This document shows, piece after piece, positions 47,261 to 57,189 of a stretch of DNA of 64,000 bases (position 1 is its first letter; each line of letters begins with the position of its first letter). Made by a program: the position numbers and the translations under genes. This DNA is from Mucilaginibacter rigui (GTDB lineage Bacteria > Bacteroidota > Bacteroidia > Sphingobacteriales > Sphingobacteriaceae), in the NCBI RefSeq assembly GCF_014773275.1, contig NZ_JACWMW010000001.1, positions 806,001 through 870,000 of the forward strand. The letters are read 5' to 3'. Under the pieces are notes generated by a model. The model searched no databases. It was given only the letters and a program-made list of their open reading frames with translations, and was not told where the DNA came from.

Positions 47261-49834
47261 TTAAAAATCAAATTTCACAAAGAACCTGATACCGCTGCGT
47301 GGCGCACCCGGGTGATCCAGGTAAGTAAAACGCCTTACATAATCAATCCGCAACAGTTTAAATATGTTACCTACACCCACGCTACCTTCAACATAAGGGG
47401 TAGAACCTAAGGCATAAGTACCGGCACCGTTTGCACCTACACTGCCCGGAAAGCGCAACAGTGATGGGTCGTTAGCGGGGTCGTTCTCTTTACGTACACC
47501 GCCCCAAAGGCTTTTTACGTCGATGATCTCACGTAATTTTAATCTTTTTAACAACGGGATACGGTTAAATATAAAGCCGTTAAAATTATGGTCAACAGCA
47601 ATGCTGGCGTAATGGTCGCTCACAAACTCCTGGAAGTTCATTAAGTTGTACGATTGCAGCTGGAACGCATACGTTTGGTTGGCGTGGTGTATATCCAGTA
47701 AAGGGAAAGGCACCTTGCCAAACAGATAACCGCCTTCGGTAGTTACATCGGTAAAGCCAAACTGCGACAGATAAAAACGTTTGTTAATATTACCTACAAC
47801 GTTCTGGTAATTGTACTCGCCACCTAACAGCCCTTTAACTCCCTGGGTATAGTTAAGGGTAAAAATAGGGTACTTGTCAGGTATTGGTGTGCGGTACAGT
47901 TTGCCCTGGTAAAATTTCTCGTGTGGCGCCCAGCGTAACTGTGCCGATAACTCTGATGTTTGGATCAGGTTAACATTGTTTAAACTGCCGTTTGGCAACA
48001 AATTCTGGTAAAGTAAGGCACCGGCAGGTGTTTGGTTCCATTTTTTGAAACCTAACGAGTACGACAGGTGATTGGTAAACTCGTGAACATAATCTAACCT
48101 GAAGATATCATTGTATAACCAGATATCGTTTGCGCCACGTTTAAATGACAACAGGAAGTTACTCTCCTGTACAAACTGAAGCTCCTGGCCCGGTATTTTG
48201 GTATCGTGCTGGAAACTTGCGCGGATATAGTTTTGCGGGAACGAGTAGATAGATTTATTGTTAAGTGAGTAAGTACTGCTTAAAAAGTATTTAAATTTTT
48301 CATCGCGGGTACCGTAAGCACCGTAAGTTTCAAAATAATAGCGTTTGCTCAGGGTAGGAGTAGTACGGCCGCCAATACGTACGCGGAAACCTTCTACCGG
48401 GTTAAAGCTGTAAAATGTATTGGCCGGGCCTAATTCAAAGGCGCCAAAATTTTTGTAACCGGCCAGCACCAGCGTGGCAATATCCATTGTTTTTTTGAAC
48501 GATGGGATGGTTTGCAGGCTATCTATGTTCTTATAAATACTTGCCGATGCCGCGTCCAGTGTATCAGGGCGGGTCATTTGCCAGTAGGTGTCGTCTTTAT
48601 CTTCGGCGTTTAAAGCAACAACCTGTGCCGGGCCTTTGTAAGTATCGTTAGTGCGCGCATTGTTTATAACAAAATTGCTGATGCTTACCAGGCGTTCGCC
48701 ATATATACCACCACCTTTATTTTTGTTGATACCGAACTCTATCTTCAGGTCGCTTTGGCTCAGGTGGTAACGGCCATCGTTGTTCTTCTCGAACGACAGG
48801 TTGGCCTGCATCTGGCGCACAAAGTTTAAGTTGATGTTTTTGTTAACGGTAAGCATCGCGTTTTGCACGGCGTAGTTACCATCCATAGTGATATAGATCT
48901 TTCCTTCAAACAACAGGTTGTTTGTATTACGCGGTGTAAAGCTAAGCTCAATAAGGTTTGGTTTTACATCTTTAAGGGTATCGGTAATAAAGAATTTGTA
49001 AAACTCGGGCGAGCTGTTGGCAATTGGGCTTAGCAACTGGTTACTTAATAACGATACATTGTTATCATAGATATTAATATCCTGATACATGCGGTTAAAG
49101 TAAGCGGTAAGGCCCTGATTATCTACAAAGTTCTCGTCATATTTTACCTGCTTGTTAGCAGTGATGATCTGCTTTTTGGCGTATGGGTCTTTACGGAAGT
49201 AATTATCAGACATTTTCTCTTCCTGGTACATGGGTAGTAAGGTTTTACCACCTATAGCAGTAGAATCCTGCTCACGAAACAGGAACTGATAATTTTTAAA
49301 GATCTTTTTGTTGCGGAATTTATCGCTCAGGTTACTTAAAGAGAAGTTCATGCGTTCGTACTGTTTGTACTCGGCATAGTTATAGTTCTCTACCTGGTTT
49401 TGTGCTTTATGGGCAATAACCTGGCGGATAAGCTCGACAGCAGGATTGTTTTTATTGGTGTATTTTTTCTTCTTGCCAGAGCGTATTACCACTTCGCTTA
49501 ACGCCTGGCTGTTCTCTGCCAAGGCAATGTTGATGGTTTGATCCTGGCCCTGGGTAATGTTACGAACAGCGGTACGGTAACCAACAAATGATGCCTTGAT
49601 TTGCGTAACAGTATTATCAGTAGTTGATAAAGTATAGCGGCCCTGGCCGTTTGTGCTGATGCCTTGTGTTGTACCGGCAAATGATACCGTTACGTATGGC
49701 ATGGCTTCTTTTGTTTTAGCATCGGTAACAATACCACGCACAATAGTTTGCGCGTGCAGCGTCGTAAACGACGTAAACAGTATAAGCATCATTAAGATGC
49801 TTTTATTATAAAGGGGAGTGAGTAAACGTTTCAT
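47261..49834 (-). CDS. DUF5686 outer-membrane protein with CarboxypepD_reg domain
   Basis: An 857-residue protein: signal peptide (TTLHAQ), CarboxypepD_reg-like domain (about 30-110, VRGIVTDAKTKEAMPYVTV), then the DUF5686 region (NPAVELIRQVIAHKAQNQ) and a C-terminal beta barrel ending FFVKFDF. This family is common in Bacteroidota and of unknown function. It sits between a small unknown gene and marR in one transcription unit. Confidence 0.9.
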   Translation of the reverse strand: MKRLLTPLYNKSILMMLILFTSFTTLHAQTIVRGIVTDAKTKEAMPYVTVSFAGTTQGISTNGQGRYTLSTTDNTVTQIKASFVGYRTAVRNITQGQDQTINIALAENSQALSEVVIRSGKKKKYTNKNNPAVELIRQVIAHKAQNQVENYNYAEYKQYERMNFSLSNLSDKFRNKKIFKNYQFLFREQDSTAIGGKTLLPMYQEEKMSDNYFRKDPYAKKQIITANKQVKYDENFVDNQGLTAYFNRMYQDINIYDNNVSLLSNQLLSPIANSSPEFYKFFITDTLKDVKPNLIELSFTPRNTNNLLFEGKIYITMDGNYAVQNAMLTVNKNINLNFVRQMQANLSFEKNNDGRYHLSQSDLKIEFGINKNKGGGIYGERLVSISNFVINNARTNDTYKGPAQVVALNAEDKDDTYWQMTRPDTLDAASASIYKNIDSLQTIPSFKKTMDIATLVLAGYKNFGAFELGPANTFYSFNPVEGFRVRIGGRTTPTLSKRYYFETYGAYGTRDEKFKYFLSSTYSLNNKSIYSFPQNYIRASFQHDTKIPGQELQFVQESNFLLSFKRGANDIWLYNDIFRLDYVHEFTNHLSYSLGFKKWNQTPAGALLYQNLLPNGSLNNVNLIQTSELSAQLRWAPHEKFYQGKLYRTPIPDKYPIFTLNYTQGVKGLLGGEYNYQNVVGNINKRFYLSQFGFTDVTTEGGYLFGKVPFPLLDIHHANQTYAFQLQSYNLMNFQEFVSDHYASIAVDHNFNGFIFNRIPLLKRLKLREIIDVKSLWGGVRKENDPANDPSLLRFPGSVGANGAGTYALGSTPYVEGSVGVGNIFKLLRIDYVRRFTYLDHPGAPRSGIRFFVKFDF

Positions 49835-50387: not shown

Positions 50388-52955
50388 TTAGATCCTGAAG
50401 TTTAGTGACACATAAGGATACCAGCCCTCTTCAGAATGGCCTGCTAATACCTGTAAAATTGTTAAGCTGGCCGGCGAAAAGTACAAGCCACCACCAACGC
50501 CATGGTGCCATTTGTCAGATTTTTCTCCATCGGCCCAAACGCGGCCGGTATCATAAAACCCGCTTAAGCCCAACTGGCCGGGGATAATGTAACTGGCAAT
50601 ATTAAACAGTTTAACCCGGCCTTGCAGGTTATTGTAAACCATGTTTTTACCTGCGAAACGATACTGCAGATAACCCAGCAAATTACCCTGCCCACCTAAA
50701 AACATCGACTGGTAAAAAGCGGGTTTGCCAACGCTTACGCCACCACCAATACGGTCTGATAGTACAACTGAACCATTATGGGTTAATTTTTGGTAAAAGG
50801 TAAACTCAGGTCTTATCTGCATAAAATCTTCCGAGAAATTATTTAAGCCTTTATAGCCTTGCAGTGATATATTGATATAATAACCGCCGGTTGGCAAAAT
50901 GCCGCCAATACGCTTGTTGCTGTTAAAGTTTACCATCAAACCCAAATGCGCCTTGTCCTTGTTAACTGTCAGGCTATCGTACGAGCCAATAAGCGAACTA
51001 TGGCTGATTAGCCTGCCTACGTTATCGTCCAGGTCTAACCGGTAATACTGAAACGATGGGCCTGCGCTGATGGTGCTGCCTTTGCCGGTATGCCAGCGCA
51101 GGGCAGGGTCAACCTGGTAGGTATCAAAGCGGGTACGGTAATACCTGCGGTAATTGGGTTGTTGTTTATTTAAAACGGTGTTATTACCCAGCCCAAAAAA
51201 GTTTACGGTGTTATCAGGCGCCTGTGCGAAAACCTGAAGCGTGAAATCGGCTTTGCCAATAGCCTGGATCCATTCGCCGTTATATTTTATACGGAAGGCA
51301 TCGGTACCAAAGGCATGTGTAAGCATCAATTGCTGCGAACTGGTGTACGGCAATTTGCGGAAACCATCGTTTTTTGTGTATTTAAACCCAAGGCCCAGCA
51401 AAAAGCCGTCATCGGCATTGATGGCTGCGGTTGCAAGCGGCATCCATATATTGTATGGGTTGGTAGGCACAAAACGCGTGTTGTTTGTATCGGCGCTAAG
51501 GTGTTTGCTTAACCTATTGGCCATGCCTTCAAATTTCACGTCTTTAGTATCGTAAACCCGCACTTTATTGGCCGATTGTGTTACATTGTAAACCTTGGTA
51601 CCGCCGCTGCCTACCAACCTTAAATTTACAGGAGAGGTAGTATTGTTGATGGCAATGTTGTCATCCCCGGCAGAGGTGTATAGCCTTATTTCTTTTGTGT
51701 ATTTGGGGCTATAGGCTACAGATAGGATGGTATCCTTCACCTCGCCGTCTTTGTTTATTTTATTTACCTGCACCAACAGGCTGCTATCGGGCAGGCCTGT
51801 AATTACTACCTTTTCGTTTTTGTCGCTCAGGCGAATATCCGCGTAGCGATAAATTAAACGGTAGTATTTATCCATAGCTTCGGGTAAGGCATCGCGGCGG
51901 GCCTTTAGTTTAGCCAGTAAAACATCGTGCCCCATTTTGTATGTGTCGCCGGGCAATAGGCGTAGGCTGGCTTCTAAAACCTGGTCGTTTTCTGCAGCTA
52001 CAAATTCATGGGTTACGCGCATCCATTGCTCGTGGCTCATCTGCGCATTTGCATAAGGGTTTATAAAGCGGGTTTTGTATATGCCGTATTTGTAATTCGG
52101 TTTAGCCGTAAAATCGCCCAGTACGGGGTTAATATATGGTAATGCGGCTATATCCGGAAACAGTCCCTCCTCCAGGTGAAATACCTGGTCGCGGTCGCGG
52201 GGTACGCCTAAATAAGCTTTTCCCTTTTTTGTTTTGGTTTCGGCCCAGCGCCATTGGTCTTCGTGGCGGTCCCAGTCGCCAATTAAAAAATCGAGCAGGC
52301 GGGCGCGTAAAAAGGCTTCGCCATCAAAGGTATTGTCGTTGTCCTTTACCAGGTTCGCCAGCATTTTTATGGAGTTGTCAGAATTGCCTATAGGTTCGCG
52401 CTCTTCCAGCAGGCAAACCAGGTTGGCAAATACTTTGCGATATTCACCAAGTGCTTCATCATCTGCTACAACACCAATAACCGGGTTGGCATGGGGCACA
52501 CGCGCGGCATCAGCCAGCGGTGGTACAACCAACGCCGAAAAAGGATGCTGCCCGCTTAAGGCATCATCAAGCCAATCCACTGCGAAGGTTTCGCGCAGGG
52601 CTTCGGGCAAAAGCTTATCGGGGGTTTTCTCCACACTGCGGATCACCCATTCCCTGCCGCTTTTATCTTTAAGACGTAGTGACTTCGACTGCATACCGCC
52701 TCCTTCTTTTTCGGGTGTTAAACCACCGTAAATTTCAGAGATGCGGATAATCGGCAGTTTTACAGCGGTGGCCCATTCCTTACGGTAATTATTGCCAAAA
52801 AACCAGCGGTGCACGCCGCCAACCTTATCATACCTGGGGTGTACCTTTACCACCACACTATCGCGAAATATAGCTTTTGGGGCAGGTGCCTGTGCGTAGG
52901 TGCATAATACTGCCACCGGCAGCGTTATAGTTGTAATAAGTAGCTTTTTAAGCAT
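50388..52955 (-). CDS. Large outer-membrane Omp85-like barrel with N-terminal atypical-kinase-like domain
   Basis: An 855-residue secreted protein (signal peptide ending LCTYAQ). Residues about 80-270 contain a glycine loop (GGGMQSKSLRL), VIRSVEK (possible nucleotide-binding Lys/Arg, R106 and K110), LIGDWDRHEDQW (D229, R230, H231) and GVPRDRDQVF (D254, D256). This order resembles Fam20/HipA/PI-kinase-like folds, where DRHxxN/D and a following D hold metal and ATP. The C-terminal 350 residues form an Omp85-type barrel ending SLNFRI. It is last in an operon with polyphosphate kinase. The kinase resemblance is motif-level only; related Bacteroidota proteins often join phosphoesterase domains to this barrel. 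Confidence 0.75.
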   Translation of the reverse strand: MLKKLLITTITLPVAVLCTYAQAPAPKAIFRDSVVVKVHPRYDKVGGVHRWFFGNNYRKEWATAVKLPIIRISEIYGGLTPEKEGGGMQSKSLRLKDKSGREWVIRSVEKTPDKLLPEALRETFAVDWLDDALSGQHPFSALVVPPLADAARVPHANPVIGVVADDEALGEYRKVFANLVCLLEEREPIGNSDNSIKMLANLVKDNDNTFDGEAFLRARLLDFLIGDWDRHEDQWRWAETKTKKGKAYLGVPRDRDQVFHLEEGLFPDIAALPYINPVLGDFTAKPNYKYGIYKTRFINPYANAQMSHEQWMRVTHEFVAAENDQVLEASLRLLPGDTYKMGHDVLLAKLKARRDALPEAMDKYYRLIYRYADIRLSDKNEKVVITGLPDSSLLVQVNKINKDGEVKDTILSVAYSPKYTKEIRLYTSAGDDNIAINNTTSPVNLRLVGSGGTKVYNVTQSANKVRVYDTKDVKFEGMANRLSKHLSADTNNTRFVPTNPYNIWMPLATAAINADDGFLLGLGFKYTKNDGFRKLPYTSSQQLMLTHAFGTDAFRIKYNGEWIQAIGKADFTLQVFAQAPDNTVNFFGLGNNTVLNKQQPNYRRYYRTRFDTYQVDPALRWHTGKGSTISAGPSFQYYRLDLDDNVGRLISHSSLIGSYDSLTVNKDKAHLGLMVNFNSNKRIGGILPTGGYYINISLQGYKGLNNFSEDFMQIRPEFTFYQKLTHNGSVVLSDRIGGGVSVGKPAFYQSMFLGGQGNLLGYLQYRFAGKNMVYNNLQGRVKLFNIASYIIPGQLGLSGFYDTGRVWADGEKSDKWHHGVGGGLYFSPASLTILQVLAGHSEEGWYPYVSLNFRI

Positions 52956-52981: not shown

Positions 52982-53887
52982 TTAACGGTTATACTTAAAC
53001 AGCAGGATATTACCATTCGTTACTTTATCGCCTTCGTTTGAGATATACAGGTTGCCCTGTTTGTCGAAAGCCATTCCTTCGGGCTGTAAAAATGTTTTGC
53101 CACTGATAGGGTAGGCCTGTAATACTTTCCATTGCTCATCAAGCACAACAATTAATTTGTTTACTGATGAGAGTATATACCATTGCTTTGTTAACGGGTT
53201 TTTAGCCAGGGCAGATGGATGGAACCTGAGCTTGCCCTTGCCAATTAATGCAGATATTTTCTGTACATCAATAGTAAAGGTACCGCTTTGGGTAATGGTG
53301 CCATCAGCAGCTAAATTAAATATATAGCCGTTGCACTCTTTGTTATGATCTTTACCGGCGCATTGTTTGCAAAGCGCGTATAGTTTGCCGCCGTCGGCAT
53401 GCAGGCCTTCGTATTCGCCTGTTGGTAATATTTTCTTAAATTCTTTTACGTTGTTTATTTGCCCGGCCTTAACTTCTGTTAACGGGAAACTGAACAAACT
53501 GCCATCACTGCGTAGCATAACTGCCTGGTTGTTTAATATGGCCACATCCTCATAATCGCCGGCTTTGCCAAATTTGGCGTGGCTAACCTTACTATCGCCG
53601 GGGCGGAAGTAAAAGATCTTGCCTTCCTCGTCCTGCTCGGCATAAATGGTGCTTGCGTCACCGTTGTTAAAGGCAATGCCCGAGATCTCCAGTAGTTCTG
53701 TCGGCATATCATATTTTACCGGGTTGCTAAGATCATAACCTGCCGGGCTTGCACTGCTAACCGTAGCTTTTTTACCATGCGATGCTTTTTTACCGTCGGC
53801 ATTTTTCTTTTTACCCTGGCTGCATGATGTGCCCACAATGCCTATACATAATAAGGAGAAGATGATGGCTGTTTTTATATTTTTCAT
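52982..53887 (-). CDS. SdiA-regulated-like beta-propeller lipoprotein
   Basis: A 301-residue lipoprotein (signal ending IVGTSC) with a low-complexity lysine-rich linker and a propeller of the SdiA-regulated type (LLEISGIAFNN, TIYAEQDEEGKIFYF, YEGLHADGGKLYALCKQC, FHPSALAKNPLTKQWYILSSVNK, LQPEGMAFDKQGNLYISNEG). Its ATG overlaps the ppk1 stop by 4 bases, so translation is coupled. A binding rather than catalytic role is most likely. Confidence 0.8.
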   Translation of the reverse strand: MKNIKTAIIFSLLCIGIVGTSCSQGKKKNADGKKASHGKKATVSSASPAGYDLSNPVKYDMPTELLEISGIAFNNGDASTIYAEQDEEGKIFYFRPGDSKVSHAKFGKAGDYEDVAILNNQAVMLRSDGSLFSFPLTEVKAGQINNVKEFKKILPTGEYEGLHADGGKLYALCKQCAGKDHNKECNGYIFNLAADGTITQSGTFTIDVQKISALIGKGKLRFHPSALAKNPLTKQWYILSSVNKLIVVLDEQWKVLQAYPISGKTFLQPEGMAFDKQGNLYISNEGDKVTNGNILLFKYNR

Positions 53888-55926
53888 ATTATCCTGTCGA
53901 GGTTTAAATATTGATAAATGGCCTTTTGCGATTGAACGGCTTCGCCGGTTATCTGTGGCTTAATTTGGTTAAGGTGCTGGTCAATTGCCACGGCTTGTGC
54001 ATTATCACTTAGTTGTAAATTAATTAATGCGGTTATTTGTTGTTTGATGGCCGTATCATACACCGGGAAGCAAACCTCTATGCGGTGGTAAATGTTCCGG
54101 TTCATCCAATCAGCCGATCCCATAAATATTTCGGGATCGCCATTATTATTGAAGATAAATATACGCCCATGCTCCAGGTAGCGGTCAACAATGCGTTTAA
54201 TGATAATGTTTTCGCTAAGGCCTGCCACACCCGGCACCAGGCAGCAGATTCCCCGGATGATCAATTGGATATTTACTCCCGCCTGTGATGCCTCGTAAAG
54301 TTTATCTATCATCACCCGCTCTTCCAGGTTGTTCATTTTAATGATGATGGAAGCAGATTGGCCTTGTTTAGCGAGTTTTATTTCGCGATCTATCAGGCTT
54401 AAAAAGTCGGTTTGCAGGTTAAAGCCGGCTACCAGCAGGTGTTTAAAATCTATTTGTGTTTTTGGCGATGGTTTTTCGCGTTTAGCCAAAAAGATAAATA
54501 ACAGTTCCACCTCGCGCAAAATATGGGGGTTGGTGGTCAGCAATATGTGGTCGGTATAAAACCTGGCGGTGCCCTCGTTAAAGTTACCTGTGGCCAACAA
54601 ACCCGAGTAAGTTATTCTATCGCCGTTGCGGGTTTTAACCAGCGCTATTTTGGCGTGTACCTTTAAAGCGGTTACACTGTAGATGATCTGCACACCGGCG
54701 TTCTTCATCTTTTTTGCCCACTTAAGGTTGTTGGCTTCGTCAAAACGGGCCTTTAACTCAACCACCACTTTAACCTTTTTGCCGTTTTTGGCAGCGCTTA
54801 TCAGGGCGTTCACAATTTTCGAATCGCTTGCCACACGGTAAAGTGTAACGTTTATTTCTTCAACATCGGGGTTGTTGGCAGCCTCGTTAAAAAAACGCAG
54901 TATGGTATGGTACGATTGATAAGGCGTATTCACCAGCAGATCGCCTTTAGCCATAGTAGCAACTAAAGGCTCATTATTAGGTACAGGTAAATTTATAGCC
55001 GGCCATTTATCATATAGCAGGGCAGGGGTGTTTACGGGTAAGCTGTAAAAATCTTTCAGATTATGGTACCTGCCGCCTTCTACGGTGCCCGCGTTTTGCA
55101 GGCCAAGGTGTTGGATAACCAATTGCAGTAGGCGTAGCGGCAGATCGGCCTGGTGCAAAAAACGTGTGGCCAGGCCGTTATCGCGCTTTTGCAATTGTTT
55201 TTCTATCTGCTCAGATAACTCGCCGGGGTATTCGTCCTTCAAATCAAGTTCGGCATCGCGGGTTATCTTGATACTGTAACAGCCTTCAATTGTGGATGTT
55301 TTAAAAAGCTTATCCAGGTTAAAGCGGATAATATCATCCAAAAAACAAATGAACTGCTCCCCCTCGCATTTTGTACTGTAAAACCGCGGTAACTCGTCCG
55401 ACGGGATGTTTAACAAGACCATCTTTTCTTCAACTGCATCGCGCAGCTGTATAACAAAGTACAACTTATTGTTTTCGGGGAAGAAGGTAGTGTCCTCATT
55501 CAAAACAACGGGCTGTAAAAAAGCAAGCACTTCTGCCAGGAAATAATCGGTGAGTTCTTTTTCTAAGGCAGAGGGCAGCTCGCCGTTGTAAAGCAGCGTT
55601 ATTTTATTGGCCTTTAATTCAGGGATAAGCTCTTTGGTCAGGATCTCTCCAAAACGCTTTTGTTGCTGCAAAACGGTTTTGGTAGCCTGCTGCAAAATGT
55701 TGTCCTGCTCGTCGGCATCGATCTCATCGCTTTTTTTGCCGATGTTTTTCAAGGCTTTGAGTACGGGGATACGCACCCGGTAAAACTCATCAAGGTTGGA
55801 AGAGTAGATAGACAGGAACCTGATGCGTTCTATTAAAGGTACAGATACAGAGGCTGCTTCTTCCAGCACACGGCCATTAAAGCTCAGCCAGCTAATATCC
55901 CGGTTAAAATATATAGCGTTCAGCAT
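53884..55926 (-). CDS. ppk1: Polyphosphate kinase 1
   Basis: A 680-residue PPK1. It opens YFNRDISWLSFNGRVLEEA and contains the core blocks ARFDEANNLKWAKKMKNAG, LKVHAKIALV (phosphorylated His), YSGLLATGNFNEGTARFYTD and IFIFNNNGDPEIFMGSADWMNRN. The enzyme makes polyphosphate from ATP and can run in reverse. It is flanked in the same operon by an HD-PycTM protein (3 bases before) and a coupled lipoprotein gene. Confidence 0.96.
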   Translation of the reverse strand: MLNAIYFNRDISWLSFNGRVLEEAASVSVPLIERIRFLSIYSSNLDEFYRVRIPVLKALKNIGKKSDEIDADEQDNILQQATKTVLQQQKRFGEILTKELIPELKANKITLLYNGELPSALEKELTDYFLAEVLAFLQPVVLNEDTTFFPENNKLYFVIQLRDAVEEKMVLLNIPSDELPRFYSTKCEGEQFICFLDDIIRFNLDKLFKTSTIEGCYSIKITRDAELDLKDEYPGELSEQIEKQLQKRDNGLATRFLHQADLPLRLLQLVIQHLGLQNAGTVEGGRYHNLKDFYSLPVNTPALLYDKWPAINLPVPNNEPLVATMAKGDLLVNTPYQSYHTILRFFNEAANNPDVEEINVTLYRVASDSKIVNALISAAKNGKKVKVVVELKARFDEANNLKWAKKMKNAGVQIIYSVTALKVHAKIALVKTRNGDRITYSGLLATGNFNEGTARFYTDHILLTTNPHILREVELLFIFLAKREKPSPKTQIDFKHLLVAGFNLQTDFLSLIDREIKLAKQGQSASIIIKMNNLEERVMIDKLYEASQAGVNIQLIIRGICCLVPGVAGLSENIIIKRIVDRYLEHGRIFIFNNNGDPEIFMGSADWMNRNIYHRIEVCFPVYDTAIKQQITALINLQLSDNAQAVAIDQHLNQIKPQITGEAVQSQKAIYQYLNLDRII

Positions 55927-55929
55927 AAT

Positions 55930-57189
55930 TTATTTATGGCCTTTACTGTACAATGCCGAAGCAATAATAAATGCCAGCACAGCGGCAATAAGCCCAAACA
56001 TAAATATGTTATAAGCAATGCGCAGTAAGCGGTATTTTTTACCTAATACAACCCCCTGCGCGTACACATCTTTTATTAAACTACCGTACAAAAACTCTTT
56101 GTCTTCCATCATTTTTACCATGCCGTAGGTGTAATCCTCAAGTGGCATTTTGTAAAAATTACCAAAGAACAGGAGGTTAACGCGGCGTTCATCCACATCT
56201 GCCCGCTTAAATATCCCGGTTGGAATAGAGGGACGGGTAGCCAGGATAGAGAAGGTCATGGCCAGCAGGCTGATTGATAAAAGTATAAATGTAGGAATGG
56301 TTAAATATTCGTAATCGGTTAGTTTACGCAACAATAAACTGATCACCGCCGACAGGATAATGGAGTTAACCGTTATCATAATATGAGCCTTGTTATCGGC
56401 CATGTCGCTCAGTCGCTGGTGGTTGCTGCTACTGATCCGAAACATGGTTTCGATACCTTTATCAGGGCGGTCGGCTTTCTTTTTTTTACCGTCTTTTTCC
56501 GGTTTTGCAGAATCGTCGTCAACGGTGGTTATTGCTGTTTCTTGCATGGTCTCGGTATGTTTTTCTTCCGCTTTATCTTCCGCCTTTTTTTCGGCAGCGG
56601 CTATTTTGTTTTTTAATGTTTGGATGTTGGCTTCTTTTCCGCTGTTCAAAAGCAACTGGCAGTAATCGGTATGGTAGTGGTGCTCCTCTAAAAAGTGGAT
56701 GCTTTTGCGGCGCCACTCCAGTTTGCTCAGGTCTTTATGGTACAGGGCGTTAATTTCTTTTAAAAGCTGTTTGTCCTTTTTAAAAAAGTCATCGGTGCCT
56801 AAATGAAAAAGGTCTGCATCACAAATTATCTTATCCAGCAGGGTAACTGGTTTTTGCGGCATTTGGGTAGCCAGTATACAGCCTTTTATTGCATCAATAT
56901 CTTCATCGTTTGCATTGTGCTTTTGCAAAAAGTTTAGAGCCAGTACAGCGCTTTGGGCTTCGTGGTGTGCAATATCAACCATATAACCCAGGTCATGAAA
57001 CCACGCAGCAGCTTGTACAATAAAAAAATCGCGGTCATTAAGCTGGTAATGGTTGCCAATTTGCATGGCAGCAGCAACCATATCTTCGGTATGTCCCTTG
57101 TCGTGGTATATTAGCTTGTCATTGGCATGCGTTTTATAATATGCTAATGCGTATTCCCTTATATGGCGAAGTAATTCGGGGTAATTCAT
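55930..57189 (-). CDS. HD-domain phosphohydrolase fused to a PycTM (Pycsar-effector) membrane domain
   Basis: A 419-residue protein. An HD domain covers about 1-180, with H33, H65-D66 (AAWFHDLGYM) and a later Asp (CDADLFHLG, D124/D126) as metal ligands. A charged linker (about 190-250) leads to a two- to three-helix membrane domain with FRISSSNHQRLSDMADNKAHIMITVNSIIL, the signature of PycTM/DUF5706 Pycsar effectors, and a final helix near the C-terminus. HD enzymes of this class cleave nucleotides or phosphoesters. It is first in the operon with ppk1. Whether it is a housekeeping protein or an antiphage effector cannot be settled from sequence. Confidence 0.88.
   Translation of the reverse strand: MNYPELLRHIREYALAYYKTHANDKLIYHDKGHTEDMVAAAMQIGNHYQLNDRDFFIVQAAAWFHDLGYMVDIAHHEAQSAVLALNFLQKHNANDEDIDAIKGCILATQMPQKPVTLLDKIICDADLFHLGTDDFFKKDKQLLKEINALYHKDLSKLEWRRKSIHFLEEHHYHTDYCQLLLNSGKEANIQTLKNKIAAAEKKAEDKAEEKHTETMQETAITTVDDDSAKPEKDGKKKKADRPDKGIETMFRISSSNHQRLSDMADNKAHIMITVNSIILSAVISLLLRKLTDYEYLTIPTFILLSISLLAMTFSILATRPSIPTGIFKRADVDERRVNLLFFGNFYKMPLEDYTYGMVKMMEDKEFLYGSLIKDVYAQGVVLGKKYRLLRIAYNIFMFGLIAAVLAFIIASALYSKGHK

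Follow-up and report, generated by a model that had tools for sequence, protein, structure and literature searches.

A predicted kinase-like domain joined to an Omp85-type outer-membrane barrel in Mucilaginibacter rigui and other Bacteroidota

Kinase-fold enzymes that act outside the cytoplasm include the secretory kinase Fam20C, a writer of phosphate marks for which the purple acid phosphatase TRAP serves as the eraser. Within the periplasm, phosphorylation is thought to be limited by the scarcity of ATP. CotH kinases (PF08757), whose targets are coat proteins, work with ATP in vitro (PMC7821199).

Enzymes joined to outer-membrane barrels have been described separately. PlpD, a type Vd patatin-Omp85 protein, is an enzyme-barrel fusion that keeps the enzyme in the periplasm (PMC11116518), and a 'Metallo' subfamily of the Omp85/TpsB superfamily, in which a PF00149 domain is combined with an Omp85 barrel, was described in 2014 (Heinz and Lithgow, PMC4104836). 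In that paper PF00149 is labeled a metalloprotease, and the main text contains neither the word "kinase" nor the word "phosphatase."

The protein described here is encoded in a stretch of 64,000 nucleotides from Mucilaginibacter rigui (the window), where an initial annotation had read one gene as an atypical-kinase-like domain joined to an Omp85-type barrel. A literature search, in which coverage of subscription papers was thin, returned no description of this kinase-like domain or of a kinase-Omp85 combination.

Domain layout and the Omp85 barrel

The features of the gene, its product and its operon are listed in Table 1. The open reading frame is a real gene, conserved widely in Bacteroidota, and the motifs originally picked out in it (a glycine loop, VIRSVEK, GDWDRHEDQW, and PRDRDQVF) are all present, in that order, in the 855-residue product. 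The proposed succession of a kinase-like part and an Omp85 barrel is likewise correct, as seen from the Pfam barrel match, the strands of the model and its best PDB matches (BamA, Sam50, and TamA). Pfam recognized the barrel and nothing else in the protein (PF01103, residues 594–819, 36.5 bits against a cut-off of 24), and NCBIfam and PHROGs gave no significant match over the first 490 residues, which hold the kinase part. With 16 barrel strands at residues ~503–850 in the full-length model (pLDDT 93.8, pTM 0.89) and the PF01103 match, the protein is a member of the Omp85 superfamily. A scan for promoters and terminators gave results no better than chance level.

Table 1. Window coordinates of the kinase-Omp85 gene, the parts of its product and the neighboring genes.
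Feature	Position	Strand	Basis or remark
Kinase-fold/Omp85 gene, 855 aa, ATG start	50388..52955	-	final gene of the operon
Predicted signal peptide (Sec), residues 1-23, MLKKLLITTITLPVAVLCTYAQA	52887..52955	-	KK, hydrophobic stretch, AQA before PAP
Kinase-like domain, residues ~40-372	51840..52838	-	AlphaFold, Foldseek PDB matches, end of stand-alone relatives
All-beta linker domain, residues ~373-485, without POTRA	51501..51839	-	DSSP of models
Omp85 barrel, 16 strands, residues ~503-850, RGF-like loop NLLGYLQYRFAG	50406..51449	-	PF01103, model, BamA/TamA fold matches
Glycine-rich loop, residues 77-88, GGLTPEKEGGGM (to 89: GGLTPEKEGGGMQ)	52692..52727	-	G77/78/85/86 93-97% conserved
WVIRSVEK, residues 103-110, N-lobe strand and basic pair R106/K110	52626..52649	-	R106 93%, K110 96% conserved
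E184, hinge-side strand end	52404..52406	-	98% conserved
Candidate catalytic-loop motif, residues 222-237, DFLIGDWDRHEDQWRW	52245..52292	-	conservation, CtkA/CotH/HipA alignments
PRDRDQVF, residues 252-259, putative DFG-equivalent (D254/D256)	52179..52202	-	conservation, CotH alignment, joint loss with R106
SdiA-regulated/NHL-type beta-propeller gene, 26 bp upstream of kinase-Omp85	52982..53887	-	PF06977
Polyphosphate kinase PPK1, 4-bp overlap with propeller gene	53884..55926	-	sequence and naming in the initial annotation
HD-like protein, HDLGY motif, C-terminal PycTM membrane domain	55930..57189	-	PF18967; 3 bp from PPK1

No POTRA domain was detected by Pfam in the 855-residue protein, and the linker is all-beta in the models; Omp85 proteins devoid of N-terminal domains are already accepted as the 'noNterm' subfamily (PMC4104836). 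In relatives, the linker (51501-51839, minus strand, in the window) shows GDD / GGxGxD turns, e.g., LYGLGGDDRF...RIIGGKGDDIITD in locus L010, which appear similar to calcium-binding RTX-type repeats. The protein is comparable to PlpD in combining an enzyme and an Omp85 barrel in a single chain, and differs from it in having a kinase fold instead of a lipase and an all-beta linker instead of POTRA. PlpD is a precedent for an Omp85-fused enzyme that remains in the periplasm, and the kinase-like domain probably lies on the periplasmic side of the outer membrane as well.

Fold and candidate active site of the N-terminal domain

Residues 26–480 were modeled with AlphaFold from an alignment of 108 non-redundant domains (mean pLDDT 95.5, pTM 0.93). 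Structure prediction and fold comparison, which the initial annotation had proposed as a check, yielded a two-lobed kinase fold: all 12 PDB matches with Foldseek E<0.001 are kinases, kinase folds also make up nearly all of the top 50, and the best are CtkA (E 1e-5), PI4KII-alpha (7e-5), and a HipT-type kinase (4e-4). The similarity is distant, the 12 best matches having TM scores of 0.30–0.35 by query (a value that takes in ~105 linker residues) and just 0.40–0.52 by target, with an rmsd of 7–11 Å. The model thus supports the assignment of the N-terminal part to the protein-kinase-like superfamily. In contrast to the present protein, CtkA, HipT/HipA, and PI4KII, its best solved fold matches (about 10–14% identity), are not outer-membrane proteins. 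The end of the domain is fixed by stand-alone relatives of ~430 aa, which stop at residue ~370. Searching the PDB by sequence with this one protein as query gave nothing above noise (FtsZ, E 0.41).

The kinship initially suggested with PI-kinase and HipA folds held for PI4KII and HipT, with CtkA also among the closest, whereas that with Fam20 did not: Fam20C (4kqb) is a weak fold match (Foldseek E 0.017) lacking any Pfam or sequence match, and Fam20 membership was rejected on these grounds. HipA membership was rejected as well, as the HipA_C alignment keeps the register without scoring better than the controls described below.

Residues G77, G78, G85, G86, R106, K110, E184, D222, D227, D229, R230, Q234, W235, D254, R255, D256, and G264 are each conserved at 92–100% across 108 non-redundant homologues, and the motifs are therefore no chance strings. 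GDWDRHEDQW corresponds to residues 226–235 and R106 lies on a model strand at residues 102–107. Of 172 domains, 158 (92%) have all members of a set of eight residues (R106/K110/E184/D229/H231/Q234/D254/D256), among them 80 of the 81 that carry a phosphatase and both copies of the M. rigui genome. Degenerate copies lose R106, H231, D254, and D256 jointly (p 1e-7 to 1e-13, shared ancestry ignored); among the 108 non-redundant domains, nine have lost R106, of which all nine also lack D256 and six lack D254, and four of these cases look like a single clade. Joint loss is expected if the residues form one site and, together with the alignments, leads us to infer that the motif residues cluster in space.

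In a profile comparison, FLRARLLDFLIGDWDRHEDQWRW...VPRDRDQVF was aligned to the part of CotH that closes with IPxDxD; the hhalign scores through the catalytic region were 33–39 (p about 1e-3), against 12–22 for ten control alignments (unrelated or reversed). The two families share the order of C-lobe helix, WD-type catalytic loop, beta hairpin and IPxDxD, and differ in N-lobe sequence and in the Omp85 barrel present in the family described here. The window protein has no PF08757 match over the curated Pfam cut-off, and 2 of the 108 members match it (best E 0.02). In a PDB profile search CtkA matched locally at GNFDRHNGNWGF / DTLLGNFDRHNGNWGF (E 0.72, not significant alone), its GNFDRHNGNW being aligned to GDWDRHEDQW. 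As the CotH, HipA_C, and CtkA alignments share one register, D229 (94% conserved), which falls on the catalytic Asp of all three, is likely the catalytic Asp, and D254, aligned with IPxDxD of CotH, is likely the metal-binding Asp of a DFG-like motif.

Two positions deviate from this scheme. In the catalytic loop, Gln takes the place of the metal-binding Asn (Q234, 94%; Asn 3%), a position at which CtkA has Asn, and the apparent beta-3 Lys position is occupied by Arg (R106, 93%), with a Lys four residues further on; for these reasons ATP chemistry is not to be assumed. In ordinary kinases this pair of changes would impair phosphotransfer from ATP. Taken together, the high-confidence model, the kinase-dominated fold search and the in-register CotH/HipA-type catalytic-loop profile alignments sustain, at a distant level of similarity, the description of an atypical-kinase-like domain followed by an Omp85 barrel. 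We classify the domain as a new, divergent protein-kinase-like family on a known type of barrel, separate from CotH, HipA, and Fam20.

Several relatives have an altered site. In the domains of loci L138, L141, L142, and L143 R106 is changed to V/L and the D254/D256 acids are gone (RxxY), with D229, the fold region and the barrel kept, and these are likely pseudokinases. At L128:2452-5112 (plus strand) a tandem paralogue located beside an intact copy has its catalytic motif replaced by VNNWEKEPRSFKW and looks like a pseudokinase partner, the pair being reminiscent of Fam20A/Fam20C. Three consecutive kinase-like genes without a barrel occur at L116:5128-10148, one with Ser for the putative catalytic Asp (DWSRREDQW), and a relative at L114 has the same substitution.

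Family members, the phosphatase and the PPK1 neighborhood

Homologues were found in 153 of the 297 Bacteroidota genomes sampled, part of the matches covering the barrel only, and the genome collection contains at least 80 close loci; a search of the plasmid collection returned Bacteroidota records only. Kinase-like domains extracted from the 297-genome search matches and the at least 80 close loci listed (172 in total) comprise 78 with the barrel only, 81 with an N-terminal extension and the barrel, eight in proteins of 500–590 aa without a fused barrel, and five in stand-alone proteins of ~430 aa (barrel-less genes occur at L117–L121). M. rigui has a second copy (locus L152), 58% identical to the window protein. 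Its genome also encodes two CotH-family (PF08757) proteins (G000:C6:275366-276367 and G000:C9:356194-357195), so CotH-type kinases coexist with the kinase-Omp85 family.

In at least 81 homologues a PF00149 calcineurin-like metallophosphatase is fused in front of the kinase-like domain. Its metal ligands (GD, GDN, GNHD, HH, GHEH) are 96–100% conserved in 81 fusions, and the nearest solved structures are tartrate-resistant (TRAP)/purple acid phosphatases (E about 1e-3). L112, L113, and L122 carry the phosphatase as a gene of its own beside the kinase-like gene, which indicates that the association of the two domains survives fission and fusion. The combination of kinase-Omp85 and phosphatase is a functional parallel to the Fam20C/TRAP pairing. 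Homologues of ~1200–1375 aa show the PF00149-Omp85 pairing of the 'Metallo' subfamily and, judged by this domain content, very probably belong to it, whereas the window protein has no PF00149 domain and falls outside that definition. A query with the fused domain, run without a positive control, gave no match to a separate phosphatase gene in the M. rigui genome.

The kinase-Omp85 gene closes a tight same-strand run (HD-PycTM, PPK1, beta-propeller, kinase-Omp85). Counts for these neighbors, taken over 81 close loci with 9 kb or more of DNA, are 54 for PPK1, 57 for the propeller, and 58 for HD-PycTM, a conserved neighborhood that is in part due to shared ancestry. PPK1 (E below 1e-160) also lies 13–108 bp from the gene, in opposite orientation, at the distant loci L123, L126, L130, and L147, from distant families, and 2.0 kb away, again in opposite orientation, at L131, against an estimated chance of well under 1% of finding a given single-copy gene within 6 kb in genomes of 3–5 Mb. 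The link to polyphosphate metabolism is therefore more than an accident of the M. rigui genome, yet it is not universal: the second M. rigui copy is not beside PPK1, and the solo and split versions are mostly away from it.

The HD-PycTM gene (55930-57189, minus strand), which carries a Pycsar effector-type membrane domain, is a neighbor conserved across families. At L118:6363-10165 the gene of a DUF5686/carboxypeptidase-regulatory-like protein and a stand-alone kinase-like gene are 7 bp apart, and a relative is encoded in the window (47261-49834, minus strand) close to the kinase-Omp85 gene.

Possible functions and their significance

Building on the computed fold, barrel, motif conservation, fusion and operon linkage, we infer catalytic activity on the periplasmic side, metal use and reversibility, and lean toward a periplasmic phosphotransferase that is anchored in the outer membrane, belongs to the protein-kinase-like superfamily and often has a phosphatase of its own as partner. 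The Omp85 barrel would anchor the enzyme at the periplasmic surface of the outer membrane, and the two-lobed domain would bind a phosphate donor through N-lobe R106/K110; D254 (and D256/Q234) would hold a metal and D229 would act as catalytic Asp. The acceptor is probably a protein, glycan or lipid of the envelope. The fused or adjacent purple-acid-phosphatase-like enzyme may couple writer and eraser of one mark, or donor-handling and transfer steps, and co-expression with PPK1 would put the system in phosphate/polyphosphate metabolism. Against a phosphotransferase count the Arg and Gln exchanges described above, the location of the second M. rigui copy and of most solo and split versions away from PPK1, the loose global superposition on known kinases, the sequence-level similarity to named kinase families, which stays under curated cut-offs, and the matter of the donor, as we know of no source of ATP in the periplasm. 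Polyphosphate is a possible donor, on circumstantial grounds. A new outer-membrane kinase family that phosphorylates periplasmic envelope components with polyphosphate or another non-ATP donor, the fused phosphatase reversing the reaction, is the boldest reading and very unlikely.

A kinase fold serving other chemistry, such as nucleotidylation or the handling of polyphosphate or pyrophosphate (with polyphosphate as donor, or transferred or cleaved at the outer membrane), would explain the altered Lys and Asn positions and the PPK1 neighbor. The conservation of both exchanges, Lys to Arg and Asn to Gln (93–94%), the recurrence of the PPK1 linkage in different orientations and the fused phosphatase speak for this reading, which is nevertheless unlikely: both PPK1 and the polyphosphate it makes should reside in the cytoplasm, an exporter of polyphosphate was not identified, and solo, split and paralogue loci occur without PPK1. 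Moreover, a predicted kinase family, Lani_1194, has likewise been suggested to carry Arg at the beta-3 Lys position (PMC9758233), and other chemistry need not follow from the exchange.

A non-catalytic sensor or scaffold, in which the domain would recognize a phosphorylated ligand and either gate the barrel or control the phosphatase, is distinctly unlikely in view of the complete catalytic set in 92% of the domains, both M. rigui copies included. So strict a retention of D229, D254, and D256 is not what binding alone should require, even if the clade of L138 and L141–L143 persists without the metal-site acids and retains the fold region and the barrel. Omp85 barrels of known function mostly assemble or translocate proteins (PMC11116518) and the place of the absent POTRA is occupied by something else, as would suit a BamA/TpsB-type assembly or secretion pore with the N-terminal domain as a periplasmic substrate-docking module. 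This is highly improbable given that the domain is conserved in an enzyme-like manner, also exists as barrel-less stand-alone genes and is fused to a phosphatase.

Under the phosphotransferase reading, the kinase-shaped domain, the PPK1 operon and the phosphatase fusions suggest a phosphate-transfer device in a compartment not known to contain ATP. With a conserved kinase fold at the outer membrane that has intact catalytic acids, altered nucleotide contacts, a phosphatase in many relatives and PPK1 in the operon, the use of a non-ATP donor can be put directly to the test in culturable Bacteroidota. If such a donor is used, the family would represent an ATP-independent phosphorylation system beyond the inner membrane. 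The large 'Metallo-Omp85' proteins also gain a candidate function to look for.
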